A DNA stretch of 64,000 nucleotides, from assembly GCA_036768485.1 (NCBI GenBank), contig JAVLUZ010000154.1, positions 5,188,724 to 5,252,723 of the forward strand, read 5' to 3'. Source of the stretch: Mermis nigrescens. Taxonomy: Eukaryota; Nematoda; Enoplea; Mermithida; Mermithidae. Every line of letters begins with the position of its first letter. The stretch's first letter is position 1. The notes under the pieces are model-generated. The model did not search any database. It was given only the letters and a program-made list of their open reading frames with translations, and was not told the origin of the DNA. Shown here one piece after another: positions 22,151 through 45,945 of the stretch. Both the position numbers and the translations under genes were made by a program.

Positions 22151-23520
22151 CATGACCGTTTTTTACAAAATTTCAAAAATCGGAATAAATTCACTTTACA
22201 ATATTTTCGGTTTATGGTACTTTTGCCGCTGCGTGCGTTATAACATAGGATCGGACGTCATATACATACATGATACTACAAGATGGGCAATGCTAAACGG
22301 TAGAGTGATGTGATATAAGATACCCTGTCTGTGCCATAACATGCAGTGATATGAGATAAAAGATACCCTCAGCTATAACTCATGAGTGATATAAGATATC
22401 ATGTGAAATATGACACCCTTTGCTACAACGAACAAAAAAATTTTAAAACATCAAAAATATGGTTTGACTAAAAAAATTTTCAAAAACATCAAAAATATGA
22501 TTTTCTCTAATGAATTTTAAAAACCATTCTGCAACGTCGAAAATATGGATTTGATCAAAAATATGTACAGTGGTGAAGCGGGAGGCGTTCCTGTGCATGA
22601 GCATGTCCGATTTTTTGCCAAATTTCAAAACTCGGATTAAATTCAGTTTACACTGTTTTCGGGTTATGGTACTTTTGCCGCTGCGTGCGCTATAACGTAG
22701 GATCGGACGTAATATAGCCTACATAAGGCTACAAGATAGGAGATACCCTCTGCTATAACATATGAGTGATATCAGATTTCATGTGATATATGACACCCTT
22801 TTTTACAACAAACAAAAAATTTCTAAGACAAAAAAATATTGGTTTGACCAAAAAATTTTCCAAAACATCCCGAAACATCAAAAATATGATTTTGACTGAA
22901 GAATTTTCAAAACCATTCTGTAACGTCAAAAATATGGATTTGATCAAAAAAATGGTTGACAAAAAATATTTTTAGAGAATGAAAAAAATGAAATATGCTT
23001 TTTAGCAACAATTTTTCTTTTTAGAAATGTCCTAAAAACATCAAAAGTCCCGCAAAATGGAAAATACAAGAGACATCCCAATTTCATATAGCTATCAGGC
23101 CTAAGTTCAGCCCAGGCAACGCCGCGTAGCTCAGCTATAGTCGGTTTCATTTAACTTTTGGGTTTTTGAAAATATTTAAAGTAACTACAAAAAAGTTTTA
23201 TACTGATACGATAAATATGATATTCTACAGTATGTCGTGTCACTTGGAGACGTATGCAAGCCGCATTATTGCATCAATAGTTTTAACCACTTTTGTAGCA
23301 CGTTTGCCAAATTTCAGAAATCTGAATAAATTCAATAATACCATTTTCGGGTACGGCACTTTTGCCGCTGCGTGCGTTATAACATAGGATCGGACGTAAT
23401 ATAGCCTACATAGTGCCACAAAATGGGCAATGCCATATGGTTCAATCATTTGATATTAGATACCCTGTCTGGGCCATAACATGCAGTGATATAAGATAGG
23501 AGATACCCTCTGCTATAACA
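22150..23520 (+). repeat. Tandem repeat cluster (GCCGCTGCGTGCG units)
   Basis: Three copies of a segment containing TACTTTTGCCGCTGCGTGCG, ATAGGATCGGACGT and GATACCCTCTGCTATAACA start near 22180, 22615 and 23305. They are separated by spacers rich in AACATCAAAAATATG (22445-22560 and 22815-22965). The third copy continues at 25036 after a Mutator-like insertion. Confidence 0.85.
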
Positions 23521-23852
23521 GATTGTGACCCGCTTGACCCACCGTCCCGCTAGACCCACCGTCCCGCTAGACCCACCGTTCCGCTAGACCCACTTTTTCG
23601 TCCCGCTAGACCCACTGAAAGTCTCGCTAGACCCACCACGTGCGTGATGAGGTGTCCCACTAGACCCATCATTATGCGACCGTCCCGCTAGTCCCACTGT
23701 TTTGGAGGACCCACCCGAAAAAATGAAGACATACATATTACATGTGCAAAAATTTTTGTAAGTATTAATTTAAAAGCAAGTTTGAGTATTTCCAAAATTT
23801 TACTCGTATATCCAAAAGTTTGGGAGGGCTAGTCCCCCCATCTCCCACAGCC

Positions 23853-24122
23853 ATCGGTGGGCGGCACCAAAGTTCTGGAGGGAGGGAAGGTGCAAGATTT
23901 ATTCAAAGGTCAAAAAATGGCCATACAAATGGTGGTATGTCGAACGAAACACCATTTTTCAACGTTTCTCATCAAGTACTATCCATTGGCATCAAAAAAT
24001 TGCGAAAAAAACAAAAAAAAATTAAAAAATTGAATTCTGGGGGTATTTTGATTTCTGGGGGGGGGGGTATTTTGGTTACTCGGGGAGTGTATACCCCCAA
24101 ACCTCCCCTACGCCGAGGTATG
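23853..24122 (+). mobile_element. MITE-A copy 4, nested in Mutator-like element
   Basis: 270 bp with family ends. Flanks CCCACAGCC (23844-23852) and CCCACAGCT (24123-24131) form a 9-bp duplication with one mismatch. Confidence 0.92.
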
Positions 24123-24312
24123 CCCACAGCTACGCCATTGCCTGGCTAATAGAAACAAAATGTTTTAAATATGAAGTAAATTTTCGAAATGATACAACGA
24201 TACTTGTCAAAAATTTAAAGAGACATAATTTGTTTCTAATAGTATTTTTCGAATGTGTATACATTGTCAACAAAATCAATAACGGACAGCTGTAAATTTT
24301 GAAATATGGAAG

Positions 24313-24322
24313 AATAAATATA

Positions 24323-24375
<53 letters not shown>

Positions 24376-24560
24376 TAATTATAATGAAAATATTAATAAT
24401 ATTAATAAAAATCATAATAATAATTATAATAATGATAATAATAATAATAATAATATTAATAACAATAATAATGATAATAATAATAGTAATAATGATAATA
24501 ATAATATTAATAATAATAATAATAATAATTATTATTATTATTATTATTATCAATAATATG

Positions 24561-24592
<32 letters not shown>

Positions 24593-24597
24593 TTTAT
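24313..24597. repeat. (AAT)n microsatellite with interruptions
   Basis: AAT/ATT triplet array of about 285 bases with scattered substitutions. Poly-Asn, poly-Ile and poly-Leu frames over it are artefacts. Confidence 0.97.
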
Positions 24598-25077
24598 ATA
24601 TTTATATATGTATATCCAGAAATTCTACTTTTAGTAACGTTTTATGTTCGCATATATTCGCAGAAAATATACACAATTTCATGCAAAAATATACAAAATT
24701 TATTTATTTATTGATTAAATTAATTGATCAGGTATTTAATTAAATGTAATTATTTTCGAATCAATTATTTAAATATTTGACTAAACATATATACTTGAAT
24801 GGATACACTTTACAAGCGTTTCTGTTTTTGCTTATAAGTGTACATAATTTTCTTCTCTGGTGTTTCTTCGAAGACAGTGGGTCTAGCGGGACGGTCGCAA
24901 AACGGTGGGTCTAGCGGGACACCTCATTATGCACGTGGTGGATCTAGCGAGACTTCCAGTGGGTCTAGCGGGACGAAAAAGTGGGTCTAGTGTGACGTGG
25001 GTCTAGCGGGACGGTGGGTCAGGCGAGACGGGACCGCTATAACATATGAGTGATATAAGATATCACGTGATATATGA

Positions 25078-25440
25078 TTGTCCGTGCACGATGCCGCCAA
25101 CCTATTGTTTCCAAAAAAATCCGAGATAAAACAAACATTTTATTCAATTTTGCTTTTGTTCATCAAAAAAGTTTATTTGATACGATGAACGACGAATTCG
25201 TATTTTTTGCTACACGGTTGTTCATTTCAAAACGGAACGACGAGCGACGAACGATGTCCGTGCACGAAGCCGCCAGCCTAATTTTTTCTACAAAAATTTG
25301 TGATTAATCAAATGTTTTACCAAATTTGTGTTTGTCCATCAAAAAGTTTATTAATATCACGAACGATGAATTCGTATTTTTTTGTTAAACGTTTTTCATT
25401 TCGAAACAAAACGACGGACGACGAACGAATTTTCGTTTTG
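25078..25440 (+). repeat. CGAACGA-rich tandem pair
   Basis: Two roughly 175-bp units each begin TGTCCGTGCACGA.GCCGCCA (25079 and 25255) and run through CATCAAAAA.GTTTAT and GA.GAATTCGTATTTTTT. A reverse-complement unit lies at 29870-30052, so the three flank the later repeats as inverted copies. Confidence 0.85.
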
Positions 25441-25554
25441 CGTTTCGTTTAAGCAAAAGGACGGACGAGAAACGAATTCCGTTCGTACTTCGTCGTTTCA
25501 TATACTCAGTTATTAACGACGAACAAGACGTATTTGTAGACAGGCGGCTATAAA

Positions 25555-26146
25555 TAGACTGGGGTTCACAAGTGCGGCATCAGGTCAAGCTGAAACGATA
25601 CGAATCACGCATGGGTGTGGTGTTTTTTGGAGGGTCGGGACGCCCCGAGAATTTTTCTGACCTAGAGAATTTAATTTCTGGTTAAATTTTCGGCGATTAT
25701 GCCCGACTGGACTCCCTCCACAAGACTAATAAAAATAAGTTTTGGAATATACATAAAATTTTTAATGGCTGGAGCATTTCAGGAGCAGGGGCCCTGTTTA
25801 TACATGCAACTAAATTTTGGGGTTTCTACGGAATGTAGTCCTATAAAATAGCACGAAAAATTCAAATCTTGGGGATCTGTCGATTTTTTCGTGGATGTTA
25901 AGATTCTGGGGGCCTACGTTGCCCTATTCATCCGAGCAGTAAAAAAATATTCTCAGGTTAGAGACGCCTTAAGAAAGATTAAATTTGTAAGAAGCAAAGA
26001 TTTGTTGAGGTTTTCATTTCATGCGCCCAAGCCATTGTAAAAGTGTAGTGTACATTATGTATATTCAAAACTCATTTTTATTAATCCTTACTTATCTTTC
26101 AAAAATGCAAAACCGTGCACAGTGTAATGAACCAGATATCATAGAT
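25555..26146. other. Intronic sequence, no gene recognised
   Basis: GC-rich patches such as GGTCGGGACGCCCCGAG (25635-25651) and a weak family-C-like stretch near 25870. No supported gene. Confidence 0.4.
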
Positions 26147-26695
26147 AGCGCGTTAGCGCGTGGGTAACATATGTCCTCCTCACAGTTATAACGGCACACA
26201 TCTGAGAGGTGCGCTTTTTTTAAAAAGGTAGATAATAAAAAACTTAAGACCCCCATTTTTTCCTTGTTTACACTCTATACCTAGCTAGTCGTGAGTGTGT
26301 AAAGTTTACACCGAAAATTCAAATGATCAGCGGAGTTAGAATTTTAGAAAAAAATGTTTTCTCCGAATAGTAGGTTACGAATCTGGTCTTAAAATTTCTT
26401 CGCACTCATTAGTTGTTGCACAGAAGTGTAAAGTAGACGGTTTTTTACTGTTTTCATGTGCAGTAGCATATCTAACTCAGTTTTGCATTCTATGCAGTCT
26501 GATTAGTTTCAAAAGGTAAACAGTTATAAAATCTAGTAGAGTATTTATTTTTTCCGAAAAAAGTAATGTTTTCAAATTTAGAGGCGGTTTATTGTAAAGA
26601 GTCTGGGACAAAAAATATTCTTTCCTGCCATACTCTCCACTTAGTAGACAGAACGTGGTAATTATCTTTAAAATGTGCCTCGTCCAAAGTGCTAC
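26147..26695 (+). repeat. R1 repeat family, 5' end and internal part
   Basis: Begins with AGCGCGTTAGCGCG, the same short self-complementary sequence that begins the copy at 61562. It continues as a near-duplicate of 19185-19665. It ends abruptly against an inverted R1 copy at 26697. Confidence 0.8.
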
Positions 26696-26696
26696 T

Positions 26697-28350
26697 TTTT
26701 AGCAGATTTTGCGACTTTAGGTAGCTTTTTCCTAGTTCCTTCCTTTTACATCCTTAATAATCCACTAATCCAAGTATATTCATCTTTTTTATTCCATCGA
26801 AGCATTTGTCTTTGCTAGTACCCTACTTTTGATAAGTATAATTTGAGTATACACATACAGTAACATGCCACAATAACGACAGCAGTCCAAGAACGCGGAA
26901 AATAATATTGTTCTTAACATCAGCATTATCCTTTTTAAACGAGACAATCTTACATTATTTAAACAGATCAAAGTTTTGCAGCATAAACTTGACGCAAATA
27001 TCAACTGTAAGCAAAACTAACACTTAGATTTGGAAGTAAAATAAATTTGTAGTATAAACTACATATTAACAACAAATGAATAGTGCAAATTTTACACAAC
27101 TACTAGATGTAGAGAAAACTAACAGTCAGATTCCCAATTTTGATTTTACGTATAACATTTTGAAAAAAATTAAGCTTCTGCAAGGCTCTAGAACTGAAGT
27201 TAATATGCAGTGTAAACTTTAAACAACCACAGAGTGTAAAGAACATTTTAGTCGGATTTGTAATTCCAACATTACTCTGATAGTACGATTAAGATTCATG
27301 AAAAAATCGAGTCTTCACAATAACCCGAGAACAAATAAACATCACTTGTAAACAACTTCACTCCACTGTTGAGTGTAAGCAAACGCGCTCAACTGGCGTG
27401 TCACATTTGATTCCTGGTACATTTTTAGACTTAAGAAAAATCAAGCTTCTGCAGGGCTCTAGAACTAAAGTTAATATGCAGCGTAATTTTTACACAACCA
27501 CAGAATGTAGAGAAAATTTCAGTCGGATTCGTAATTCTTATATTACGACCAACATTTATAGAAAAAATTAAGTCTGTACAATGGCCCGAGGACAAATAAA
27601 TATCAGATGTAAACCACCATACACCACTGTTAAGTTCAAACAAACTGGCGTATCACATTTGGTTTCTGGTTCATTTTTAGACTTGAGATTATGTCCAGAC
27701 TCATAACCCAGAACTTGGCAGGAAAAATAAGACAGAAACAAGACAGAAACACGTTTAACTCACCCATTTTTTTGACTTTACACCTCCAGAAAAAGCTAAA
27801 TATTGATGTAAACAATCACAATTTGCTGTGACGCGTGTTTCTTAGAAAGTGGCTTTATTTTTATCCTATTCGACCTCGCCCGACTTCTGAACAGAGAAAG
27901 TGGCGAATAAAAAAATAGACAAACACGTATTTTTGAATGTTCGAAATATTGTAAATTTTAAAATTTGAACTCTAACGCCCCATTTAGTGTAAATAAATTC
28001 GGTTAGGGCCAGTTTGTAGCCCTTTGATTGTAGTCCGTTTGTATGTGCCAAACTCATGTTCCGCAAACTATTTAGTATGATTTACCAATCAAAATACGAA
28101 AAACAACCTGTTTTTCGACAATTTCACACCTCCAGATTTCAAACTTTACACCCCCCATAAACAACTCAATATTACGTTTTTTGAACGCATTTTACGTCGA
28201 CGTCCCCTTAGAAGTTACTTTATTTCTATTTTATTCAATTCATCCCAACTCATAACTGTGTGGATGGAAGCCAAATTTTTTCTATAACAGTCTAAAATTT
28301 GTGCAAAAATCAGTTATTCACAGTGTAGAATAGCGTTTTTAGCCGTTTTA
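26697..28350 (-). repeat. R1 repeat family, inverted copy
   Basis: Starts with the R1 3' end in reverse (AGCAGATTTTGCGACTTTAG, then ATCCTTAATAATCCACTAAT). It then shows several degenerate units of about 100-120 bases with ACTTTACACAACTA-type and AGCTTCTGCAAGGCTCTAGA motifs. The far end is vague. Confidence 0.75.
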
Positions 28351-28910
28351 TTTTGTCTGCTTTTGTTCAGAATGATTTCTAATGCAAGAATTTTTCGGAA
28401 AATTTCACAATTTTAAGAAATTTTATGCAAAAAATGAATAAATTTCTTTCACTTAAACTAAAACTGGCTAAATATAGACAGGAAGACATATCGAGACTTT
28501 AATTACTTCATTATTCCCTGTCTTTCTGCATTCAGAGCGAATTCATTCAATCGTTTTACACAAAATTATAAACTCACAGAATTTATGCTACTAAGTGGAA
28601 GAAAACTACAGAAAATTCATTTCAACCCTCCAACAGACATAATAAATTTAATCATATCATTATATATCACTAAGTCAGTCCCCGAACAATTTAAGAAATT
28701 ACGATAGTTGATAGCCGAAAATCCTTGTAAAGTATGTAGATATAAATATATTCATCTTTCACCTAGCCAACTACTTTAGGCAATATGGTAAGTAGGCACC
28801 CCTCCCCCGCGATTCCTTCTTCTACTAGGCTTTACGCCACGTATGTGCCTGTCTCCTCCTTGCTATTCACTCGCCTGACATCTAGACGGCTAGAACTGAT
28901 ATATGACAGG

Positions 28911-29596
28911 CACTGGCGGATTTAATGGGGGCGAGGGTGACTGGCCACCCCTGTCATCAAAAAATATTTATGCGCAATGAATGATAGATGTGTGTTATTC
29001 AAGGATTCCAGCCATTATCACAATTTTTCAAATTTTTCCGGCGTTTCGCGCTGAGTCATACTCATTAAAGTCATTTACTGACTCTCTTCGCGCTCTAAAA
29101 GACTTAAATTTACGTCAGAAGAGTAGTTTATGTACAGAAAAATATTTTGTAGCCCCTTCAATAATTTATCGATTGTTTTCCGGCGATTTGTTCTGATTTC
29201 AACATTAATTTTGCTAGTTTTTCATAATAAAACTTTAGAAAGTTTAAAAAATTTTTTACTTTTTTTCGTCAGAAATAATTTAGCCTGTCAAAAGAGCAAA
29301 AAAAGTCTTAGTTTGAGCAGGCACGTAGCTGGCCGTCCTACTTTGGGGGACCAACACCAATTTTGGGGGTCCGGGCCGAGGGTCCAAAAAGGCCAAAAAT
29401 AGCACAAAATAACGTTTAAAAAGTCATATTTTTCCAGTTTTTTTTTAATTTCGGGGGGTCCGGGCGGACCCCCCATTCCCCCAGAGCTACGTGCCTGAGG
29501 TTGAGCACAATATACGAATTTTTAGACACAATTTTTGACAAATTTAGGAAAATTTTTGGTTCCGCTCCCTCGTCAATAAATCTTAATCCGCCACTG
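28911..29596. mobile_element. hAT-type element (outer), 8-bp TSD
   Basis: Ends CACTGGCGGATT and AATCCGCCACTG form terminal inverted repeats. Flanking 8-bp direct repeats are ATGACAGG (28903-28910) and GTGACAGG (29597-29604), one mismatch. Eight-bp duplications are the hAT signature. The interior has no transposase and is interrupted by a second insertion at 29318-29497. Confidence 0.88.
29318..29497. mobile_element. hAT-type MITE nested in the outer hAT
   Basis: Perfect 13-bp terminal inverted repeats CAGGCACGTAGCT / AGCTACGTGCCTG, 180 bp long. It is flanked by 8-bp duplications AGTTTGAG (29310-29317) and AGGTTGAG (29498-29505), one mismatch. GC-rich, non-coding interior. Confidence 0.93.
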
Positions 29597-29869
29597 GTGA
29601 CAGGCTTCTGTACGCTTTGCAGGTGTATACACGTTAAGAATAGGTGTATGTATCAAGTATAGGTACACTATTCTAGCACAGAGCAGGTACTCCTATGAGT
29701 GGGCGTGGTCAACAGCGTGCGTTCGTTTCTCGTTTTTCAATGCGCGTGACCATTTTCCAAAAGCGAACTAATAATGCTCGTTTTGAAGGCGCGCGACCGC
29801 TTTAAAAATGTAAAAATTTTGACAGTTCGTTTCTCGTTCGGGTCGCGGGGAGCTTTGGCAGTTGAGGGC

Positions 29870-30052
29870 ACGCACAGTTCGTTCGTTCGTCAATTTGTTT
29901 CGAAATGAAAAAGGCTTAACAACAAAATACGAATTCATCGTTCGTTTTATTACATAAACTTTTGATGAACAAACACAAATTTGGATAAAACGTTTGTTCA
30001 ATCACAAATTTTTTGTAGAAAAAATTAGGCTGGCGGCTTCGTGCACGGACAC
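29870..30052 (-). repeat. Inverted copy of the 25.1-kb CGAACGA unit
   Basis: Reads as the reverse complement of the 25078-25440 units, ending GGCTGGCGGCTTCGTGCACG. Confidence 0.85.
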
Positions 30053-30411
30053 TCTCACTCAACTCTTATGGGTTTGCAGAACAAGTAAAAAAATCAATAT
30101 TAACGCTGCAAATCTCAAAACAACGATGATCGCATCATCCAGAAAGTTGGCAAAAGTTGATATTTTCTTCGTTCTCATGATTTTTTATGTCTTTACTATC
30201 CTTTTCGTTCTTTAGGTTCTTCACTATGTTCGTTCAATGATTAGCAACAATTAACGTTCCCTTGTTTTATACGTTGCTTTTCTATAAAAATTTTTAAATG
30301 CGTACCTTTGCATATTAAATTATTAAGGTGTGTTTGACCGTATGCTTGAAAAATGACCAGTGAGTAGTTAGCCAAACAATAGCAACTCTTAAATTATTCA
30401 ACCTAAGCTTA

Positions 30412-30572
30412 TAGTCCGTCTCACATAAGTTTTAAAAATCATCTCCAGCAAAAACTTGACAGATTGTGATTATTGCATTGATCTGATATAAACGAGTAAT
30501 TATCGTAAACCACCAGCTTATTGTCGGAGAAAATTCGTGAAATTTATGCCCAAAATTATGCGAAACAGACTC
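30412..30572. mobile_element. TA-target MITE, copy 2
   Basis: Same family as 15464-15629: starts TAGTCCGTCTCACATAA, ends TTATGCGAAACAGACTC next to TA. The middle shares TTGACAGATTGTGATTAT and TAATTATCGTAA with copy 1. Confidence 0.8.
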
Positions 30573-30831
30573 TAAATTAATGTGCGTTCGCTTATCCAAG
30601 CCTTAGCCAGCATTATTTGATATGGAACTTGACAACAATGTTATAGTGGAATGCATGCAGAGCTATTCAATGACGACTAAATAAACAAAACCAGTTATTA
30701 AAATGCTTTATCTTCTAAGATATAGCCTGTGAGAATTGCTTGCAATTGGATTTGCTTGGATGTTGAAAGTTGTGGTATTAATTGCGCATATAATGTATGC
30801 TTTACGCTTCATTTAACCGATTAACGCTTAC

Positions 30832-31063
30832 TTTCTTTCATAAAGCAAAATGAGCTAATCTGCTTTCGTAGGCAATTCATTTTCCTTTCATAGGCCTGCC
30901 GACTTGCATCACTGAGCAAAAATTGAATATTGGGTGGTATATCTTTTATTCCATTTGGATCAAATCCGTGGAGCAGTTCATGTCCCAATGTCCAGCCAAG
31001 CAACCCATATTTGACTTGCACTGGAAATAATGGATGATAAGCCGGTGAAAGCAAAAAACCCAA
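30832..31063 (-). CDS. M13 (neprilysin-type) metallopeptidase, zinc-binding exon
   Basis: Internal exon carrying the zinc-binding HExxH motif as GWTLGHELLHGFDPNG. In M13 peptidases the two His bind zinc and the Glu activates water. Upstream, LGFLLSPAYHPLFP occupies the place of the usual PAGILQPPFF, so the substrate-side sequence is divergent. The exon is bounded by an acceptor (TTACAG before 31063) and a donor (GTAAGC after 30832). Its 232 bases end in phase 1, matching the acceptor of the terminal exon at 21431. The region before the donor has C.RKQ where the family usually has C..QY. Upstream exons (the N-terminal domain) were not recognised in the window. Confidence 0.9.
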
Positions 31064-36239: not shown

Positions 36240-36838
36240 CCGGGGGTAACTCTTGAAGTTCCATGGCGTAACCCAGAGAACCAGCACTCGGATCGGGCTC
36301 AAATTATTACCAGAGTATGTTAAGTATATGCTGAGGGTATAAAATTTTGAAGAAGCGCAAGCCTACAGTATACCAGCATTAGTTTACACTTTTGCATAAA
36401 TCAAGAACCAATGCTTGGATTTTGTTCAAATTTTCAGGAAATGATGTATATGACGATTAGCTGTGCTATGTACAGAATTTCAGCGCGCAGCCTACAGTAT
36501 ACCAATTTACTTTACACTTTCTCATATAGTACTCTAACTTTAGAGATAGAGGGCGGATTGGATTGAAATTTTAAGGGTAGAATAAATATCCTATTAGAAA
36601 ACTATTACAAGAGTTTTGTGGAAATACCTACAGTATATCAATTTTTTACAATGCTCCCAAGAAAAATTGTGTGCACGCGCTTAGGCAGGGGCCCAGAGTC
36701 AGATGGGGGACACTACCGCCACTTTACACTGTATGATTTTCGCCGATCTACGTCAAACACTCATTGATTGATCGTTCGTGAAAGTATGCATAATATTCTT
36801 TTGTTTGCTCGCTGAAATGGTTGCCACAGATTAGCTAG
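36240..36838 (+). repeat. Polinton left terminal inverted repeat
   Basis: Matches the reverse complement of about 45353-45945. Landmarks are GGATCGGGCTCAAATT, GCGCGCAGCCTACAGTATAC, GCCTACAGTATACCAGCATT and CGATCTACGTCAAACACTCA. The inner limit is at TTAGCTAG, three bases from the truncated polymerase frame. The outer limit near AACTCTTGAAG is fuzzy. Confidence 0.93.
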
Positions 36839-36840
36839 AA

Positions 36841-37611
36841 TTAGGGCATTTTTGTTATCAGGTTATAATGATTATTAGCAGTGTGCAAGTGAATCACCTT
36901 GTCAGCTTTAGGTCCTTCAAAAACCAAAACATTGCCATGATATAGTTTTATTTGGTACTCTGGCACCAAAGCATTTTGAATTTTCTCTACAGCTTCAAGC
37001 CCATATTTATCTTCATTAATGCTAAGATTAGCTTTGTGCATCAGTTCTAATGCTAGCCGTTTTTGCAGAGTACATCGGCTCTTATCTCCTTTCCTAATAG
37101 AATCCCATTTTGGGCTCTTTTCTAGCTTTGCTATTCCTGTTACAACAGCTCGAGGTAGGGATAAATTATCATTTGAGGTGATTTCAATATATCCACCTCC
37201 ATTTTTACAAAACTCCCTCACATCAGGTTCAAGGCCAGTTCCGGTTTGTTGTTTTTTATTAACAATAACTATTTTGAAAGCTATGTCCTCGCTCAAGCAA
37301 AACTCGTTCTTAGACTGGGCTACATTTTCTATAATGCTCAAAACCTTGTCAGCATTTATATACTCACGTTGAGTAAATGGAACTAATACAGGCGCATGAA
37401 GGCACGGCTGTCTAATTTCAATACCTACCAAAGAGTCAGGAGGACAGTCATGCAACATCTGCTTAATAGCTTCCTCAAAAATCTGCTCAAAGACCTCAAA
37501 CAGATTAGGGCATTTCTTGAACCGCAGCAAAAATGCTCTTGCAGTTGTCTTAAACCTACGAACAAAAATCTCTGGGAACTCATGTACTTCAAAGTATTTA
37601 TTCAGATCCAT
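36841..37611 (-). CDS. Polinton PolB, N-terminal region only (truncated)
   Basis: 256 codons resembling the N-terminal region of Polinton protein-primed family-B DNA polymerases, recognised from the order FKKCPNLFEVFEQIFEEAIK, IEIRQP, NDNLSLPRAVVTGIAKL and LHTANNHYNLI. In complete elements this region is followed by the 3'-5' exonuclease and polymerase domains (roughly 700 or more further residues), which copy the element from a protein primer. Here the frame stops right at the inner edge of the left inverted repeat, so all catalytic motifs are missing and the product cannot polymerise DNA. The gene is read divergently from the 37732 gene. A TATA motif, read on the minus strand as GTCTATAAATA (37649-37659), lies about 38 bases upstream of the ATG. 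Confidence 0.8.
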   Translation of the reverse strand: MDLNKYFEVHEFPEIFVRRFKTTARAFLLRFKKCPNLFEVFEQIFEEAIKQMLHDCPPDSLVGIEIRQPCLHAPVLVPFTQREYINADKVLSIIENVAQSKNEFCLSEDIAFKIVIVNKKQQTGTGLEPDVREFCKNGGGYIEITSNDNLSLPRAVVTGIAKLEKSPKWDSIRKGDKSRCTLQKRLALELMHKANLSINEDKYGLEAVEKIQNALVPEYQIKLYHGNVLVFEGPKADKVIHLHTANNHYNLITKMP

Positions 37612-37648: not shown

Positions 37649-37659
37649 TATTTATAGAC
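37649..37659 (-). promoter_or_regulatory. TATA box for PolB fragment
   Basis: GTCTATAAATA on the minus strand, about 38 bases upstream of the ATG at 37611. Back to back with the plus-strand box at 37672. Confidence 0.65.
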
Positions 37660-37671
37660 ATACAATCAAAA

Positions 37672-37683
37672 TCTATAAATACT
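37672..37683 (+). promoter_or_regulatory. TATA box for small zinc-finger-like gene
   Basis: TCTATAAATACT, about 48 bases upstream of the ATG at 37732. Same consensus as at 38063, 40677, 41330 and 42634. Confidence 0.65.
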
Positions 37684-37731: not shown

Positions 37732-38062
37732 ATGGAAGAAATCAGGGAAATCCAAAAGCGTCTTTTTCTGGATGAGGAGAAGAAGCCCTATGGCCGGTCC
37801 ATCAAACCGGCCATAGAGCTATGTGGGAGGAACTTGGATCGGCCCATGTACTGCCCTAATGATCCAGCTTTGCTATTTTTGTCAGAAAAATAGTTCTGAA
37901 AGGGACTTTTTCGAAACGAATTCTGGCAGGTGGTACTTGAATATCCAAATGTGCCCTAGGTGCAGCGAGTTTAATAGAGCCATGCAGGAAGCGGGCAAAA
38001 GAGTGCTGAAGCGCTATTCTGATCAGCAGGCTGAGGAGGAAAAGGCCAAAACAGCTTACTAA
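37732..38062 (+). pseudogene. Small Cys-pair protein of the Polinton, frame-broken
   Basis: Unrecognised small protein. The frame from ATG 37732 (starting MEEIREIQKRLF, charged) stops at 37891-37893. A second frame, open before 37891 and closing at 38062, carries LCYFCQKN and MCPRCSEF, two CxxC pairs about 27 residues apart that look like a zinc ribbon, then a charged tail. Overlap and similar composition suggest one gene of about 110 codons with a frame change around 37855-37890. A perfect hairpin lies inside it (37788-37816). Position between PolB and integrase and the shared TATA motif mark it as an element gene; function unknown. Confidence 0.6.
37788..37816. other. Perfect hairpin inside small ORF
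   Basis: CTATGGCCGGT and ACCGGCCATAG, 11-bp arms around a 7-base loop. Confidence 0.85.
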
Positions 38063-38073
38063 GTCTATAAATA
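38063..38073 (+). promoter_or_regulatory. TATA box for 38119 gene
   Basis: TCTATAAATAA, immediately after the stop of the previous gene and 45 bases before the ATG at 38119. Confidence 0.65.
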
Positions 38074-38583: not shown

Positions 38584-39642
38584 ATGGATAAATTGTTGAC
38601 AAAATTATATTATGACCCTCAAACTGGGTATACGGGGGCGAATCAACTTTTTGCTCGAGTGAAAAAGGTGCGCCCAGCTACAAAATTTGAAAAGGTAAAA
38701 GCATGGCTGGAAAAGCAACCCACATATACACTACACAAACCTGCAAAGAAACGTTATTCGCGTAACAAGGTAATAGTTAGCGGGGTTGATGAGCAGTGGC
38801 AAGCGGATTTGGTTGATCTACAATCGTTAGCCGACCACAATCATAATTTTAAGTACCTACTCAATTGTATTGATATTTTCTCAAAGTATGCATGGGCAGT
38901 TCCACTTAAATCAAAAACTGGTAAAGAAATTATCGCATCCTTTCAGAAAATTTTCAAATCGTCGGGCCGTAAACCATATAAACTGCAAACGGATCAGGGA
39001 ACTGAGTTTACAAACAAGGAATTTCAGCAATTTTTGAAATCTCAATTTATTGACTTTTTCACGACTAAAAGTGAAATGAAGGCTAGTATTGTTGAGTGGT
39101 TTAATCGTACGCTTAGAGAACGCATGTGACGATATTTCACTAAAAAGAATACATTTAATTATATTGACATTTTGCCCGATTTGCATAAAAATTATAATAA
39201 TTCTTTTCATAGGACCATTGGTACATCCCCCGCTAACGTTACCTATAAAAACGAAAGAGAAATTTTAAACAAAGCATTCAGGATTGATAAACCGAACGTT
39301 GTTTTTAAATTTGATATTGGTAATAAAGTTCGTATAAGTAAAGTGAAACGCACATTCGTAAAAGGGTTCTGGCCTAATTGGACCAAAGAATATTTCATTG
39401 TTAAAGAGAGGTTTGCTCGCACACCACCCGTTTATACTCTCGAAGATCAAGAGGGGGAAAAATTAGAGGGTATTTTCTACGAAACCGAGCTGCAAAAAAT
39501 TAGTGCAAAATCAGATGATTTATTCGTGATTTAAAAAATTATAAAAATTCGTAAAAAAGGCAAGAAAACTGATTATTTGGTGCGCTGGAGAGGTTACCCG
39601 CCTAAATTTGACTCGTGGGTTTCTGATATTGTAAAGCTCTAA
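38584..39642 (+). pseudogene. Polinton integrase with chromodomain, two in-frame stops
   Basis: Retrovirus-type integrase that would insert the element into host DNA. One reading frame of 353 codons including the stop is broken by TGA at 39127-39129 and TAA at 39532-39534. Residues 1-65 form the N-terminal part. The rve catalytic core has D75 (QWQADLVDL), D137 (LQTDQGTEF) and E171 (ASIVEWFNRTL), 33 residues between the last two. A C-terminal chromodomain follows the second stop (TDYLVRWRGYPPKFDSWVSD), as in Polinton integrases, where it probably guides insertion to particular chromatin. No frameshift is seen. The first stop falls ten codons after the catalytic Glu, so a truncated product would keep the core but lose the C-terminal domains. 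Confidence 0.92.
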
Positions 39643-39701: not shown

Positions 39702-39921
39702 ATGAGCAACCAGTATAGGCAAACATTGCTCAAATTTGATGATCATGCTATTTTGAGCTTCTCAAAGTTTATCAGAAAACGCCTGAAAAAAGGGCGATCT
39801 TTGCCTGCTGTTTAACTTGTGGGAATTTTTAAGCCCTGAGGCTATGTTTTACTTTGCGAACCTCAAAACAAAAATTATTGATGAACACATAACTTCATCC
39901 ATTTCATCAGTACTGATCTGA
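39702..39921 (+). pseudogene. Small unknown Polinton gene, frame-broken
   Basis: Unrecognised. The frame from ATG 39702 begins MSNQYRQTLLKFDDHAILSF with a basic stretch and stops at 39813-39815. An adjacent frame continues with LWEFLSPEAMFYFANLKTKI and stops at 39919-39921. Together they suggest one gene of about 73 codons with a frame change near 39805-39815. Codon texture resembles the neighbouring element genes. It lies between the integrase and the minisatellite in front of the TBP-like gene. Confidence 0.45.
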
Positions 39922-40153
39922 AAATTTGCAAAGTTTGGAATAATTTTTGTAAAGTTTGGAATATTTTTTGTAAAGTCTGGAATATTTTTTGTAAAGTTTG
40001 GAACATTTTCTGTAAAGTTTGTAATATTTTTTGTAAAGTTTGGAATATCTTTTGTAAATTTTGGAATATTTTTTGTAGAGTTTGGAATATTTTTTTGTAA
40101 AGTTTGGAATATTTTTTGTAAAGTTTGGAAAATTTTTTGTAAAGTTTGAAATA
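39916..40153. repeat. 21-bp minisatellite, about 11 copies
   Basis: Unit TAAAGTTTGGAATATTTTTTG repeated about 11 times with few changes, directly downstream (minus strand) of the TBP-like gene stop. A minus-strand frame through it gives seven-residue repeats such as FTKNIPN; since 21 is a multiple of 3 that frame is open for trivial reasons. Confidence 0.95.
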
Positions 40154-40673
40154 TTAGGTATCTAACCTGCATTTCTCAAGCATTGGTGAAACTATTTTAT
40201 ATGCTCTGTGCAATTCATGCTCCTGTTTTGCACCTGTAAGGATCAATTTTCCGCTTGTGAACAGCAAAAATGTTATATTTCTGAATTTGTATATTAAGCC
40301 AGGAAACAATTCCACTTCATACATGCATTTTCTTTTCACCAGGTCATAAAATTTGCAAAGATCAATGCGGAACCCTAAATTAGCAAAGCCTACGAACATA
40401 TGGGGTTTCACCTTTAAATCATCACCCCTAGCATTTAATGCATCTACAGCTGCTTTTATAGCACTTTCACCATCTTTCACTGTTTTGGCTCCAACACATA
40501 CAATTTTACCTGATTTGAAAATCAGTATTGTTGCCTGAGGTAGTCGAAATACAATTCCTGGAAATCTCAAATAATTGTATTGTGCAGTCTCTTTGGTAAT
40601 TTCTGGTATATTTCTTCGAGGTTAGCGTATGGGGTAGTGCTGTAGTCAGTAAAATATTTTGTATAGTCACCAT
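40154..40673 (-). CDS. TATA-box-binding-protein (TBP)-like protein of the Polinton
   Basis: A 138-codon frame (40154-40570) holds the two direct repeats of the TBP saddle: RFPGIVFRL with LIFKSGKIVCVGAKT, and ELFPGLIYKF with LLFTSGKLILTGAKQ. TBP bends promoter DNA and nucleates transcription initiation. The four phenylalanines that wedge into DNA in TBP have counterparts at F3, F18, F89 and F104. The frame has no ATG; coding-like sequence continues upstream in a second frame to about 40640, with an ATG at 40673, so a frame change near 40590-40600 or an alternative start is implied. The core is about 20-40 residues shorter than the usual 180. It lies inside the inverted repeats, back to back with the ATPase gene. 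TBP is not in the standard Polinton gene set as I know it. A host-gene fragment is unlikely because it is intronless and strongly diverged. Confidence 0.85.
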
Positions 40674-40676
40674 TTT

Positions 40677-40687
40677 TCTATAAATAC
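40677..40687 (+). promoter_or_regulatory. TATA box for packaging ATPase
   Basis: TCTATAAATAC, 35 bases upstream of the ATPase ATG at 40723. It faces the minus-strand box at 40701, giving two divergent core promoters in under 40 bases. Confidence 0.7.
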
Positions 40688-40700
40688 TTCCTAATAAACT

Positions 40701-40713
40701 TATATTTATACCT
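40701..40713 (-). promoter_or_regulatory. TATA box for TBP-like gene
   Basis: AGGTATAAATATA on the minus strand, 27 bases upstream of the ATG at 40673, the usual TATA-to-start distance. The TBP-like gene may therefore be controlled by its own product. Confidence 0.6.
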
Positions 40714-40722
40714 AAAACCATA

Positions 40723-41383
40723 ATGTTCCTACATCCTTTCACCTGCCTTCTTTCAGGACCAACAAAGTCAGGCAAAACAACATTTGTCAGGCGATTAATT
40801 GAGAATAGAGCATGCCTGATTGATACTAAAATCAAAAAGATTTGGTGGTGCTTCGCAGAAAATCAGCCTCTTTATAAAAAATTAAATGATGTTTTATTCA
40901 TAGAAGGGCTTCCTGAATTCTATTTACCTAAAACAATGTAGTCATGTACCTCAACTTTTGATTCTCGGTGATCTTATGCAACAGAGCAAGGGTAATGCCC
41001 AGATTGTGCAACTTTTTACAAGGAGTTGTCATCATTGGAACATTAGCATTATACACATTGTTCAAAACGTTTTCTTTGATGGTCTAAGAACTTCACGCAT
41101 CAACTCTGATTACATAGTGTTATTCAAACACTCTGCTGATCAGCTACAGGCACAAATGCTTTCCAGACAGCTCTATCCTGCCAACGCTAAATATTTTCTA
41201 GAAGCTTATTCTGATGCTACTTATCAGCCACATGGTTACCTTTTAATTGATCTAACTCAAAATGCTAGAAATGAGCTCAGACTTAAAACAAATATTTTTA
41301 GCAGGCATCCAACTATTTATATGCATAAATCTATAAATACTAGTAGAGATATTGCAACAAAAAAATGGGTAAAGAACGATTAA
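40723..41383 (+). pseudogene. Polinton packaging ATPase (FtsK/HerA type), frame-broken
   Basis: ATPase that drives genome packaging into capsids. The first frame (40723-40941) starts with a P-loop, Walker A LLSGPTKSGKTTFVRRL. It stops at 40939-40941. The second frame, open before 40958 and closing at 41383, holds the Walker B region, IIHIVQNVF, and the family tail with ANAKYFLEAYSDA and PHGYLLIDL. The gene of about 218 codons thus has one frame change near 40930-40950. Walker B reads LLILGDLM; most relatives have a pair of acidic residues there, so one appears lost. The last 19 bases overlap the next gene. Class identified from the P-loop plus the Polinton-specific C-terminal pattern. Confidence 0.88.
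41330..41340 (+). promoter_or_regulatory. TATA box for 41365 gene
   Basis: TCTATAAATAC, 24 bases before the ATG at 41365. It lies inside the 3' end of the ATPase coding sequence. Confidence 0.65.
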
Positions 41384-41715
41384 CACGCAATATTGGTTGT
41401 TTACATCTCCTAAGTCAAGCAAGAAAACCTCAAAGAACCGCTATTATAAATACTGCCAGCAAAGATCAAATCCTTTGTCTATGTGACTGTGCAAACAACT
41501 TTCTGAATGGTAATATTCCTTTCGATAAAAAGGATATAAATAAACTTCGAAGATATCACAATCAAATTAGATACCTGGCCAACAATAAGCAGGCGACTAC
41601 AAAACAAAAGACAGATATTATAATACAGGAAGGTGGTTTTCTTCCTCTTTTACTTACTCCCATACTTACAATAGCTGGTACTTTGTTAGCTGATGCAATA
41701 GCTGGTAGAAAATGA
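41365..41715 (+). CDS. Conserved small Polinton protein with hydrophobic GGFLP tail
   Basis: 116 codons, intact. It resembles a small protein found beside the capsid genes of many Polintons: an N-terminal helical and basic part (LTRNIGCLHLLSQARKPQR), a middle with DQILCLCDCANNFLNGNIPF, and a C-terminal GGFLPLLLTPILTIAGTLL segment that could enter a membrane or act as a short hydrophobic peptide. Precise role unknown; a minor virion component is plausible from position. It begins inside the ATPase gene (19-base overlap), and its stop overlaps the next ATG (ATGA at 41712). TATA motif 24 bases upstream. Confidence 0.85.
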   Translation: MGKERLTRNIGCLHLLSQARKPQRTAIINTASKDQILCLCDCANNFLNGNIPFDKKDINKLRRYHNQIRYLANNKQATTKQKTDIIIQEGGFLPLLLTPILTIAGTLLADAIAGRK

Positions 41716-42278
41716 AACATACTGAAAAAATGATTCTTATACCCGCTGAAATCAGCGAGCGGACTAAACCTATTGATGTTGTGCTAGATTCCTTGGATAA
41801 TGAATTGCAAAAAGTTTTGCATAGCAAAAGTATGGCACCTGAAATAAAACTCATGAAATACAATCAGGTGCTTAGCAGATTTAAACGACTATATGAACAA
41901 AAGCAGCAGCCATATAGAGCTAGTATAGTTGAAGATGCAAAGAATGCATTGAGTGATGAAGATGTGCTTGTCCGTATGCCAAAAAATCAGATTCCAAAGG
42001 CAAAACTCCTTCTTCACTACATTCGTACAAACCCATTTATTGAAATTGAGCATAATGGTGAGCTTGTGATAGATGGCAATAGAATTGAAGGCTCAAACAT
42101 TACAGATTTAGTTAATGATCTTGCGCGTGTGGGTAAGAAAATAAGCAGGCACCCTGGCAGAAAAGAATTGCTGAAAGCGTTTAATCGCACAAATGTTCCA
42201 CTGGAAAGTATAGTAAATAGACAAGGTAAGGAGATTTTTGCGGCAGGTGGGGAATTCGACTGGGATGAAAGTCTATGA
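41712..42278 (+). CDS. Conserved Polinton protein of unknown function (188 aa)
   Basis: Intact 188-codon frame. It resembles a conserved unknown found next to the capsid genes in animal Polintons. Residues about 20-85 look coiled or helical and charged (LDNELQKVLHSKSMAPEIK); a middle segment with LVRMPKNQIPKAKLLLHYI is followed by FIEIEHNGELVIDGNRIEGS and an acidic C-terminus. No catalytic motif or membrane span seen. It is translationally linked on both sides by ATGA overlaps (41712-41715 and 42275-42278), suggesting a co-expressed virion-assembly block. Function not assigned. Confidence 0.85.
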   Translation: MKHTEKMILIPAEISERTKPIDVVLDSLDNELQKVLHSKSMAPEIKLMKYNQVLSRFKRLYEQKQQPYRASIVEDAKNALSDEDVLVRMPKNQIPKAKLLLHYIRTNPFIEIEHNGELVIDGNRIEGSNITDLVNDLARVGKKISRHPGRKELLKAFNRTNVPLESIVNRQGKEIFAAGGEFDWDESL

Positions 42279-42633
42279 ATACTTATCACTCCTAAGGATT
42301 ACAACATTTGGTTGGACTACTACATAGGGCACGCTGCCCAAACAGGCTATGGGTTGGAAGGGTATAAAGGCATCCCATACCAGCGGGGCGTAGGTCTTGG
42401 CAGTTTTTTCCGTTCGCTTTTTAGAATGACAGTCCCAGTTATGCAGTCAATTGGTGAGCGAGTTGGAAAACATGCTCTAGTTGCAGGTTCAAACATAGCG
42501 TCTGATTTGGCCCAGGAAAACCGCTTTTGAGTCTACTAAAGAACACTCAAAGCGAGAAGCTGCTCAATTGTTTGATGAAGCCTCTCATGCCCTTCAGCAG
42601 CAGCAAGGAGAGTGTCTTGGTAGCCGCCCAAAG
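42275..42633 (+). pseudogene. Small Gly-rich minor virion-like protein, frame-broken
   Basis: The ATG at 42275 overlaps the previous stop, but the main frame (about 42285-42530) has no ATG of its own, implying a frame change within the first few codons. The main frame has TGYGLEGYKGIPYQRGVGLG and SFFRSLFRMTVPVMQSIGE, the pattern of a small Gly/basic protein seen between the 188-aa protein and the capsid gene in Polintons, possibly a core or minor capsid protein. It stops at 42528-42530. Coding-like sequence continues in another frame from about 42515 (FDEASHALQQQQGECLG) and stays open into the capsid gene's start, so its natural end is unclear. At least two breaks. Confidence 0.65.
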
Positions 42634-42644
42634 TCTATAAATAC
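42634..42644 (+). promoter_or_regulatory. TATA box for major capsid gene
   Basis: TCTATAAATAC, 31 bases before the ATG at 42676. A nearer ATG at 42649 is only four bases past the box and therefore unlikely to be in the transcript. Confidence 0.7.
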
Positions 42645-42675: not shown

Positions 42676-43967
42676 ATGGCTCTCGTAAACGGAAAATCTA
42701 TCCCCAGTACCAAGACTGAACTGGACCTTTTACGGTCCCTCCTACTCAAGTAGTGATAAAGCGTGGTTTTTGGCATGAAATTCAACCTACAAATCCTATT
42801 ACTAATGAGGGACCATATGAATTTAGAGTACCTCCTGATCCACATTACATTCAGCTCAATAAAAATTACATTTACATGCTACTGAGAATCAAAAAACCAG
42901 TAGTTGCTACTGGAGCAGCAGTGCCTGACTATGCGCCTATCAATCTTATTGGTAAGACTTTCTTTAAGCAGGTAAAATGCTTTTTAGGTGGCAAATTAGT
43001 TTTTGACAGCTCTGATAAATATGCATATAGATCGTATTTTGAAACTGAATTAAATTATGGCTATGATGCCAAGCATTCGCATTTGCAATCTGCGCTGTAC
43101 TATCATGAAGGTGGAAGTGATGTTGACACAAAAGACAATAAAGCTTTCAAAATACGTTCAAAAATGTTCAAAGATGAAAATGTTGTCGAAATTGCGGCCC
43201 CACTGCACATTGACATGTTCTTGCAAGACAGATATTTAGTTAATTTTACCGATTTCCGCCTAGAATTACACAGAAATAATAATGCATTTGTTTTGCAGTG
43301 CTTTGAGGATGTCAGCCTTGACTTGAAAGTCTCACAAATGAAATTTTTTATTCGAAAAGTTGAGGTTTTTGACATTGTGAATTTAGCTCTTGAGCAAATA
43401 ATGCTTTCCTATACAGCAAAATATCCCATAAGGAGAGTAGCTTTGACAAATTTGCACATTTCAAATCCTGCTAGAGAAATGCCCAATTATGCATTGTTTA
43501 CTGGTCAGCTGCCTAGGCGTATAGTGTTTACTTGTGTTGAAGGCAGTGCTTATCGAGGCAATCTAGCAAAATCGCCTTTCAACTTCAAACCGTTCAGCAT
43601 AAATGATGTAAAAGTAACGTGTGGAGGTATAACGTATCCTGCTTACCCCCTCAGCATTTCATTTAAACATGACAGGTACTTGCAAGCCTATACTCAGATG
43701 TTTGATGCATTACATATTGGGCATGAAGGCAATTTCATTAGCAGAGAAGATTTTAAAACAAGTCACTGCTTCTTTGTGTTCGATTTGACTCCTGATGCGG
43801 ATGATGGAGGACACTGGGACCTAGTCCGTGAAGGAACAACAAGCATCGCTGTTAGGTTTTCTGGGAATTTGCCCAATTCTGGCATTGAAATCATTATGCA
43901 TGCTGAATTTAATAACTCAATAATGATTGATAAAAACCGAAACACGTTTCATGACTATGATGCATAA
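42676..43967 (+). pseudogene. Polinton major capsid protein (double jelly-roll), one frame break
   Basis: Would form the hexon-like capsid shell. A long open stretch of 404 codons (42753-43967) carries the double jelly-roll capsid pattern of the F54H12.2-like family (FWHEIQPTNPITNEGPYEF near the start; EIIMHAEFNNSIMIDKNRN near the end). The family's N-terminus lies upstream in another frame: ATG 42676, MALVNGKSIPSTKTELDL, then a frame change around 42728-42735; that frame stops at 42751-42753. The start at 42676 was chosen because it is in frame with the conserved TELDL, lies 31 bases after a TATA box, and gives a normal family length (about 430). Followed two bases later by the protease gene. 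Confidence 0.9.
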
Positions 43968-43969
43968 AC

Positions 43970-44386
43970 ATGAACACTATTGAAATATTCAAAATTCTCA
44001 AACATAATAATACATTTGCAGGCGTTTTCCCAATAGATCGTCTGCCACCTATAAGAACCTACCCTGCGGCTCTAGTTGTAAATCTGGACCCCAGTGAGGA
44101 ACCAGGATCACACTGGGTCGCAATTTATTTTCAAAATAAGAAGCATTGCAACTATTTTGACAACTATGGCTTAGAACCACCTGTGCAATTGCATAAATAC
44201 ATTTCTGATAATGCGCTCTCATTTATATACAATAATATGCGAGTACAAGGGCTTTTCTCAATCAGCTGTGGTCATATGTGTATCTACTTTTTGGTCTGCA
44301 TGAGCAAAGGCATAAGTTTCACAAACATTGTTCTATCTATGCTCAGTGAAAAAATTTATAAATATTTCAATAAACTAAGGTTATAA
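43970..44386 (+). CDS. Polinton adenovirus-type cysteine protease
   Basis: Intact 138-codon protease of the adenain (C5) type, expected to process capsid precursors. Catalytic set in the expected order: H48 (GSHWVAIYF), D64 (CNYFDNYG), Q93 and C100 (VQGLFSISCGHMCIYFLVC), with seven residues from Q to C as in adenain. The N-terminal FAGVFPIDRLPP and YPAALVVNLDP also fit. The start is two bases after the capsid stop, implying coupled expression. No TATA box directly in front. Somewhat short compared with adenovirus protease (about 200), normal for Polintons. It is the best-preserved enzyme of the element. Confidence 0.93.
   Translation: MNTIEIFKILKHNNTFAGVFPIDRLPPIRTYPAALVVNLDPSEEPGSHWVAIYFQNKKHCNYFDNYGLEPPVQLHKYISDNALSFIYNNMRVQGLFSISCGHMCIYFLVCMSKGISFTNIVLSMLSEKIYKYFNKLRL
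44355..44367 (+). promoter_or_regulatory. TATA box for minor capsid gene
   Basis: TTTATAAATATTT, 27 bases before the ATG at 44395, inside the end of the protease gene. Confidence 0.5.
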
Positions 44387-44394
44387 AAAAGGAT

Positions 44395-45168
44395 ATGAAA
44401 CAGTTTTACATAACGCTTCCGAGCAATTCACAAGAAACAAATACTGCAGCCACATTTGTTACCAATCTGCTTAGACAAATCGCATTAACCGGCGACTGGG
44501 AGGTTGGGTTAGCTGAAATAATTTATGCAAATACATGGCACAATGTTGCTGAGGAGCAGAATATGATACAATTTTATGACATCAAAAACAATGTGCGACA
44601 AAAATTGCTTATTCCTCGAGCAAGATATTTAAATATACATGACCTCATTCAAGCCATGAGAAATGGAATAAAAACGGTTCGCCAAATAGACAAATTTGAT
44701 TACATACAATATTTTGGCATAAAGTATGATGATAATAGGAAATTTTATAAGTTAACAATCAATACTGAATATATTCAAAGTGTAAAGCTGACAAAGCATT
44801 TAATGTATATGCTAGGATTTCTATAGAGCCAGCTTAGCAATATAGATTATACTGTGAAAAAAGAATTAAACATAGTTGCGCACCATTCACCCGACATGCT
44901 AGGTGGAATGCACAACTTTTACGTATATTGCGATATAGTTGAGCCTCAAATCGTTGGAAATGTTTTTGCACCGCTTCTGCAGGTTGTGAACATAGACGGA
45001 AAATATATGGATATTGTTAATCACGCATATATTAGTCTACATTATATACCTGTGCTCAAAAAATCATTCAATACCATTGAAGTGAACATTAAAAGTGATC
45101 AAGATAAACCTGTGCCTTTTGAATTTGGCAAAACAATTGTTAAAATGCATTTCAGGTATCGGCTATAA
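44395..45168 (+). pseudogene. Polinton penton-like minor capsid protein, one in-frame stop
   Basis: Single-jelly-roll-type minor capsid protein expected at the fivefold vertices. One frame of 258 codons including the stop, interrupted by TAG at 44824-44826 (codon 144). The N-terminal FYITLPSNSQETNTAATFV and LTGDWEVGLAEIIY are typical of this family, and the C-terminal half has VYCDIVEPQIVGN, LQVVNIDG and FEFGKTIVKMHFRY. Both sides of the stop are in the same frame with no length change, so this is a point mutation rather than a rearrangement. Last of the structural block; a further small frame overlaps its end. Confidence 0.87.
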
Positions 45169-45437
45169 ACATTTTATTATCACACCTGCTTTGCCTAAAC
45201 AGCGTATCCACCTATGCCTTAGGCAGATACTTTTGGTCTAAGCTCAATGCTGAGTACAAACAAAGTTTAGTAGAAAATGATGCTGAGGCTATCAGCAATT
45301 TTTCCAATTTTCTCAAACAATGTTTTACTTTTCGTGATTTGCCTACCGTAGCTAATATGTGGCAACCTTTCAGCGAGCAAATAAAAGAATATTATGCATA
45401 TACTCACGAACGATCAATCAATGAGTGTTTGACGTAG
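45144..45437 (+). pseudogene. Unknown end-of-element ORF running into right TIR
   Basis: An open frame of 97 codons without an early ATG: GRYFWSKLNAEYKQSLVEND, then FTFRDLPTVANMWQPFSE, stopping at 45435-45437 inside the inverted repeat. Composition looks coding (charged, aromatic-rich) but I recognise no family. The first Met is about 69 codons in, so the start is lost or lies in another frame. The last third is inside the right TIR, and the left TIR carries a matching but indel-broken version. Confidence 0.4.
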
Positions 45438-45945
45438 ATCGGCGAAAATCATACAGTGTAAAGTGGCGGTAGTTCCCCCATCTGACTCTGGGCCCCTGCC
45501 TAAGCGCGTGCACACAATTTTTCTTGGGAGAATTGTAAAAAATTGATTTACTGTAGGTATTTCCACAAAACTCTTGTAATAGTTTTCTAATAGGATATTT
45601 ATTCTTCCCTTGAAATTTCAATCCAATCTGCTCTCTATTTCTAAAGTTATAGTACTATATGAGAAAGTGTAAAGTAAATTGGTATACTGTAGGCTGCGCG
45701 CTGAAATTCTGTACATAGCACAGCTAATGTCTATACATCATTCCCTTAAAATTTGAAAAAAATCCAAGCATTGGTTCTTGATTTATGCAAAAGTGTAAAC
45801 TAATGCTGGTATACTGTAGGCTGCGCGCTGAAACTCTGTACATTGCATATCTATTATATATTTAACATACTCTCAAAATTTGAGCCCGATCCGACCGCTG
45901 GTTCTTGAGTTAGGCCTCTTCAAAAATAACCCTCAGGGTAGAACA
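45353..45945 (-). repeat. Polinton right terminal inverted repeat
   Basis: Reverse-complement match to 36240-36838, with small indels and about 5-10% visible differences. Contains two GTATACTGTAGGCTGCGCGC motifs (about 45680 and 45810), the internal repeats of the TIR. Confidence 0.93.

Follow-up and report, generated by a model that had tools for sequence, protein, structure and literature searches.

Polintons, which are virus-like transposons, carry in the genome of the nematode Mermis nigrescens a gene for their own version of the TATA-binding protein (TBP), a transcription factor that marks gene starts; to our knowledge this gene is not in the usual Polinton set. Based on sequence comparison, we propose that this conserved, anciently captured TBP probably recognizes TATA boxes of the element and recruits host RNA polymerase II (Pol II), although its control of promoters is something we infer. 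The gene was originally predicted in a window of 64,000 nucleotides, the whole stretch of DNA analyzed here (contig JAVLUZ010000154.1, positions 5,188,724 to 5,252,723).

In the window, local alignment delimits a Polinton of 9.7 kb between inverted repeats of 594 and 584 bp, the outer ends of which have diverged (Table 1). As in Polinton/Maverick elements of the animal adintovirus-like kind, these repeats of hundreds of bases enclose an integrase (rve, 1.6e-15, in an interrupted frame), a packaging ATPase recognized by its P-loop and by homology to the metagenome contig L001, capsid genes recognized by homology, and an adenain-type protease. Among the 120 capsid matches listed, four relatives carry PF21738. 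The TBP gene comes in addition to this set. Gene order runs from a polymerase-like N-terminal ORF (minus strand) through a small ORF, the integrase (plus) and TBP (minus) to a plus-strand run of ATPase, three conserved ORFs, major capsid, protease and putative minor capsid. The first of these ORFs presumably encodes the N terminus of a Polinton DNA polymerase, and we take the last gene to be a putative minor capsid (penton) protein. The TBP gene had been placed inside the inverted repeats and back to back with the ATPase, and both hold, with the aligned repeats flanking it and a space of 49 bp separating it from the ATPase start at 40723 on the plus strand. This copy is defective: interruptions break the frames of TBP, integrase, ATPase and capsid, and little of the polymerase remains, with no catalytic part seen in the window copy. 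Ten frames of the element scanned with Pfam include no RNA polymerase or TFIIB domain. Near the insertion, window positions 21061-31063 (minus strand) contain exons of a host M13 peptidase, and a second set of long inverted repeats (26774-27850 and 62490-63490, about 35 kb apart) encloses the Polinton.

Table 1. Features of the window Polinton, in window coordinates
Feature	Position	Strand	Basis
Terminal inverted repeat, left (diverged outer end, boundary approximate)	36244..36837		Local alignment with 45349-45932
Putative N-terminal part of Polinton DNA polymerase (ORF)	36841..37611	-	Matches L001 frame, E 3e-12; no Pfam match
Two divergent CTATAAATA between polymerase-like ORF and next plus-strand ORF	37649..37681	- (37649-37657), + (37673-37681)	
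o37823, a small conserved ORF of Polintons that also lies close to TBP in other lineages	37823..38062	+	ORF list, similarity
CTATAAATA before ORF starting near 38120	38065..38073	+	
Integrase (rve), frames 38584-39129 and 39172-39534, in-frame stop 39127-39129	38584..39534	+	Pfam 1.6e-15
TBP-like gene, main open frame (both saddle repeats minus first strand)	40154..40570	-	PF00352, AF2, tree
TBP start codon and first strand, other reading frame	40635..40673	-	tblastn with P0135; open frames elsewhere
CTATAAATA, 45 nt before ATPase start	40678..40686	+	
TATAAATA, about 38 nt before TBP start	40703..40710	-	
Packaging ATPase, interrupted, frames 40723-40941 and 40958-41383	40723..41383	+	P-loop GPTKSGKT; L001 homology
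CTATAAATA before ORF 41365	41331..41339	+	
Conserved Polinton ORF	41365..41715	+	Similarity
Conserved Polinton ORF	41712..42278	+	Similarity
Short conserved Polinton ORF	42312..42530	+	Similarity
CTATAAATA before major capsid gene	42635..42643	+	
Major capsid protein: frame of 404 aa, with the N terminus encoded in another frame	42753..43967	+	Best relatives 74% identical
Adenain-type protease	43970..44386	+	PF00770 1.5e-5 (C5 protease)
TATAAATA before putative minor capsid gene	44357		
Putative minor capsid (penton), frames 44395-44826 and 44854-45168	44395..45168	+	ORFs, similarity
Right terminal inverted repeat	45349..45932		Local alignment

The 138-aa minus-strand frame of the TBP gene matches PF00352 in two stretches with an E-value of 2.9e-32 and scores 110.8 bits against the curated cut-off of 22.9, a result that rejects a chance frame. 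All four wedge phenylalanines are kept. The frame also matches 35 distinct sequences of solved structures, mostly named TBP (top E 2.1e-25), with human, yeast, plant and archaeal TBPs among them, and an AlphaFold (AF2) model of the 138 residues (pLDDT 92.6) has the strand and helix order of a TBP, consistent with a predicted saddle fold. About 35 N-terminal residues of the TBP fold are absent from the frame. The start codon lies at 40673, at the head of a first strand in a different reading frame; 8 of its 13 residues are identical to those of another TBP, P0135, in a tblastn match with an E-value of only 0.032, and other copies have an open TBP frame beginning with the same residues. With its start codon and first strand out of frame, the gene is interrupted in the window copy, which probably makes no complete TBP. 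The original description of a frame with both saddle repeats and four wedge phenylalanines thus stands, refined by the displaced first strand. Directly 3' of the gene, window positions 39880-40150 hold an array of units of about 20 bp resembling caaactttacaaaaaatattc.

The interruption does not stem from a local sequencing error, since 801 bp of the window (40029-40829, covering the TBP gene and the ATPase start) recur with zero mismatches at three other loci. These three loci, on contigs C64, C68 and C190, also have a 404-aa capsid frame 100% identical to that of the window. Identity of the capsid frame and of the 801 bp at no fewer than four loci, the window included, indicates that the defective form itself multiplied, whether by transposition in trans (recent multiplication of a non-autonomous Polinton) or by duplication.

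The TBP gene is widespread among the Polintons of this genome. A PF00352 search of the 524-Mb assembly gave 150 scored rows among 2552 candidates, some genes accounting for two rows; all 150 exceed the cut-off, and many of the non-host matches lie in single open frames of 165-200 aa. Full-length open TBP frames are present in other copies. Searching with the window TBP itself gave at least 150 places at 75-99% identity, including the window (scored among 2118 candidates). For the 103 capsid genes scored among 2573 candidates, we asked how often a TBP in opposite orientation lies 1.5-9 kb upstream, using as the TBP list the 150 rows of the window-TBP search plus 20 window-type rows picked from the PF00352 search; this is so for 66, against 0.13 expected, and by the listed coordinates 60 of these distances fall between 2.4 and 3.5 kb. 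The remaining 37 may be without a TBP or may have one outside the matches listed.

By similarity to window proteins, another Polinton gene accompanies TBP in 26 of the 28 best-scoring non-host loci, each viewed in a 3.2-kb stretch (none was seen at L016 and L028), and in 16 of 20 hand-chosen 8-kb stretches, three of which surround loci already sampled. Within 8 kb, L040, L041 and L045 show no other Polinton gene and L051 only a second TBP frame. The gene order of the window is complete in L032 and L033; it is kept from integrase to capsid in L034, L035 and L046, where the polymerase fragment and small ORF are swapped, and is present in part in L039 and L042. The series integrase, TBP, ATPase, three ORFs, capsid, protease, with TBP on the opposite strand, is found in L032-L035 and L046. 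A TBP gene at the same place in other Polintons, proposed as a check of the prediction, is thus found in many copies. Further Polinton lineages of the genome have TBP at other positions. In the lineage of L036-L038 it follows the minor capsid gene and is nearer to eukaryotic TBP in the tree. L042 and L051 each contain two TBP frames of different subfamilies a few kilobases apart, perhaps in nested elements, and at L039 pieces of integrase, TBP and a polymerase-like gene stand on either side with their order inverted, like a head-to-head join of two copies. Pairwise NG86 estimates of dN/dS are 0.07-0.24 in 11 of 12 chosen TBP pairs and 0.56 for L004/L023; for L016/L043, dS is saturated. The low values point to selection on the TBP protein during the spread of the elements.

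Related genes also occur outside this genome. A scan of prokaryote-species contigs with a capsid alignment reduced 48 candidate stretches to a single locus, L001, an 11.6-kb metagenome contig in a MAG titled Planctomycetota. On it lie a Polinton capsid gene (35% identical), genes for a protease and an integrase, and an ATPase gene that is interrupted. The TBP of this contig, 172 aa long (PF00352 2.4e-45), is unbroken and full-length and, like that of the window, is transcribed away from the ATPase. Its neighbors being Polinton genes, we reject L001 as a bacterial TBP locus; its presence in this MAG is probably contamination of a GTDB species genome. A second TBP, P0001 (174 aa, 57% identical), lies on a contig of 1.7 kb. 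P0135 and the capsid P0021 are both on 'lgn' contigs of 6582 bp, the sole equal pair when the 120 capsid rows listed are set against 119 of the 120 TBP rows; chance would give 0.3 equal pairs of the same source and 1.15 over all pairs, and the match is suggestive of a third independent TBP-bearing Polinton. Scans of viral contigs with TBP, capsid, the capsid alignment, the L001 capsid and the TBP alignment found no relatives, the L001 capsid had no counterpart in a phage collection, and neither Rfam (at the gathering threshold) nor PHROGs returned anything.

The TBP of the host is a separate gene, assigned by similarity from two exon-like matches 2.9 kb apart on contig C73. It is 86% identical to human TBP, to which it is sister in the tree (99/84), and 35% identical to the window frame. 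Together with a weak DUF7027 match below threshold, it suggests a nematode host. Unlike it, the Polinton TBPs are element-borne and intronless, and they are 28-45% identical to it. A host TBP pseudogene or recent retrocopy inside a Polinton could look like this gene in being intronless in other copies and interrupted in the window copy, but the gap between 35% and 86% identity, the low dN/dS and the recurrence of the gene at the same place in many copies and in the unrelated contig L001 make that origin extremely improbable; the host comparison and the conserved position led us to reject it.

We built a tree of 50 rows, comprising 22 Polinton-type, 10 eukaryotic and 18 archaeal-type TBPs and no TRF/TLF sequences. 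Four of the Polinton-type rows are without known context (P0001, P0135, P0136 and P0186) and for four (L016, L040, L041 and L045) TBP is the sole Polinton gene in the sequence viewed. Five of the eukaryotic rows are of known source (host, human, P0002, P0008 and P0225) and five of the archaeal-type rows are named as archaeal (P0157, P0183, P0187, P0193 and P0224), the others in both groups being assigned from sequence. The Polinton-type and eukaryotic TBPs group against the archaeal-type rows (100/99), and one clade holds 20 of the 22 Polinton-type TBPs (95/91). L001 and the L036-type TBP branch outside this clade on the eukaryotic stem, with moderate support for the eukaryotic rows as one side (93/78), which leaves room for one or more captures. 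Separate captures by two or more Polinton lineages are quite possible, if short of probable: the two stem branches favor them, but a single clade of the first six sampled TBPs is not rejected (p-AU 0.126), and L001 has the shorter repeat-2 hairpin of the main clade.

Of the 21 Polinton-type rows that could be measured, 17 have that hairpin, two residues shorter with an F3-F4 spacing of 15 (the exceptions are L004, L023, L036 and P0136), and none of 28 cellular rows does; in an earlier set of 132 measurable TBPs, only the window, P0001, P0135 and L001 had it. The central Asn of repeat 2, present in all 28 cellular rows, is Leu or Met in 11 of the 22 Polinton-type rows, the window lineage among them, so DNA recognition by window-type TBPs may differ from that of classical TBP. 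The four wedge phenylalanines are complete in 19 of 22 rows; in L004 and L023 the fourth is Tyr, and P0186 is truncated. The C-terminal stirrup of TBP contacts TFIIB, and its H2 helix serves host cofactors and repressors. By eye, most rows shown retain the TFIIB-facing stirrup, in the form YExE[LIM]FPxL, whereas the basic H2 helix seen in the host protein is not conserved. These comparisons give good support to an ancient capture of a eukaryotic TBP, from which the Polinton TBP descends, and to its conservation since; the captured gene looks old and widespread. The capture originally suggested for this lineage is in this way upheld by tree, context and dN/dS, with the eukaryotic side of the tree clearly preferred to the archaeal.

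The element is also rich in TATA boxes. In the window copy, TATAAATA lies 33-59 nt upstream of 8 of the 11 gene starts that could be assigned (ORF 42312 and the second minor-capsid frame, having no clear start, were excluded), against 0.37 expected for random starts; none of 2000 sets of random starts and none of 300 shuffled sequences reached this count. Three of the counted starts (near 37733, 38121 and 40672) were placed about one base off, with counts unchanged. TATAAATA is present at each side of the 49 bp that separate TBP from the ATPase and absent from both inverted repeats. CTATAAATA occurs six times in the element versus twice across the 54.3 kb of the window that lie outside it. Window-type copies have similar numbers in 8 kb (five in L032, six in L034, three in L039 and six in L046; 0.13-0.22 expected). 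In other lineages (0.10-0.25 expected) there are six in L043, three in L047, two each in L048 and L045, one each in L041, L049, L050 and L051, and none in L036, L037, L038 and L044; L036 instead has three CTATAAAAGA/CTATATAAGA boxes 47-57 nt before ORFs. As a raw count without a shuffle expectation, TATA[AT]A precedes 15 of 22 TBP starts of this genome's copies by 35-47 nt; it lies only further upstream in L040 and L044 and is not found within 100 nt upstream in L004, L010, L023, L048 and L047. In L001, TATAAA stands 25-65 nt before 3 of 14 assigned starts (0.24-0.52 expected). All these element counts come from TBP-bearing Polintons. The boxes before 8 of 11 starts lend support to the original suggestion that the lineage may direct its own promoter recognition.

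We propose that intact family members encode their own TBP, which most likely works for the element as a general factor of transcription initiation. The protein would sit on the TATAAATA boxes upstream of most element genes, including the TBP/ATPase pair, and bend them; once bound, it would recruit host TFIIB and Pol II through the conserved stirrup. As its H2 helix has diverged, it may also escape the normal control of host TBP. Counting against this proposal are the few boxes in L001 and in several other lineages, the 7 of 22 TBP starts without a site at 35-47 nt, the interrupted TBP of the window copy, the dN/dS of 0.56 in L004/L023 and the replaced Asn of window-type TBPs. Host TBP could also read the same boxes. 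If so, the Polinton TBP might instead be a competitor or decoy that ties up host TFIIB or promoters and damps transcription of the host or of rival elements. TBP-like paralogues can repress, and the diverged H2 helix, the replaced Asn in half of the Polinton-type rows and the 5 of 22 TBP starts lacking a nearby TATA-like site fit such a role; we nevertheless consider it unlikely, given the retained wedge phenylalanines and stirrup and the strong TATA boxes on element genes. Less probable still is DNA work apart from transcription, such as bending for replication, packaging or target-site choice. The pairing of TBP with the packaging ATPase in the window type and in L001 would suit it, but other lineages put TBP beside other genes, and the TATA boxes precede genes and spare the inverted repeats. 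Returning to an initiation factor, a fuller version is possible but tentative: a private, self-encoded general factor, in which lineage-specific TBPs matched to lineage-specific TATA boxes and freed from host TBP repressors would let integrated elements start a virus-like gene program through host Pol II.

TBPs have been reported from other DNA virus lineages. In the parts of these sources available to us, mirus-like elements of Cymbomonas carry TBPs (PMC10675990), TBP is a core gene in 59% of mirusviruses versus 0% of Nucleocytoviricota (PMC10132985), Megavirus chilensis has a TBP (PMC11464507), and the giant virus CpV-BQ1 encodes TBP and TFIIB, by which its authors propose that host RNA polymerase is redirected (PMC12085832). 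By analogy, CpV-BQ1 may offer a precedent for a virus-encoded TBP redirecting host RNA polymerase. The mirusviruses and Megavirus are large and, from the same portions, also encode RNA polymerase subunits (PMC10132985, PMC11464507), whereas the ten scanned frames of the 9.7-kb element include none. We found no report of a TBP in a Polinton in the accessible portions of the literature searched; subscription papers, Repbase notes and preprints outside PMC lay beyond that search, so prior notice is possible. The available text of a planarian Polinton paper (PMC10558129) has nothing on TBP, and in that of PMC12220804 and PMC7786948 the term matches and TBP, respectively, fall in the reference list only.

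In the host, TBP is essential and serves all three nuclear RNA polymerases. Polintons with the conserved, multiplied gene described here are small mobile elements that carry a putative promoter-recognition factor of their own; in the papers cited, such a gene is given only for mirus-like elements and large DNA viruses. Having several lineages, no fewer than 150 scored copies in one genome and TATA boxes before element genes, these Polintons would let one test directly how their genes are switched on and how a TBP can be re-specialized, and their TBP bears on the source of viral TBPs.
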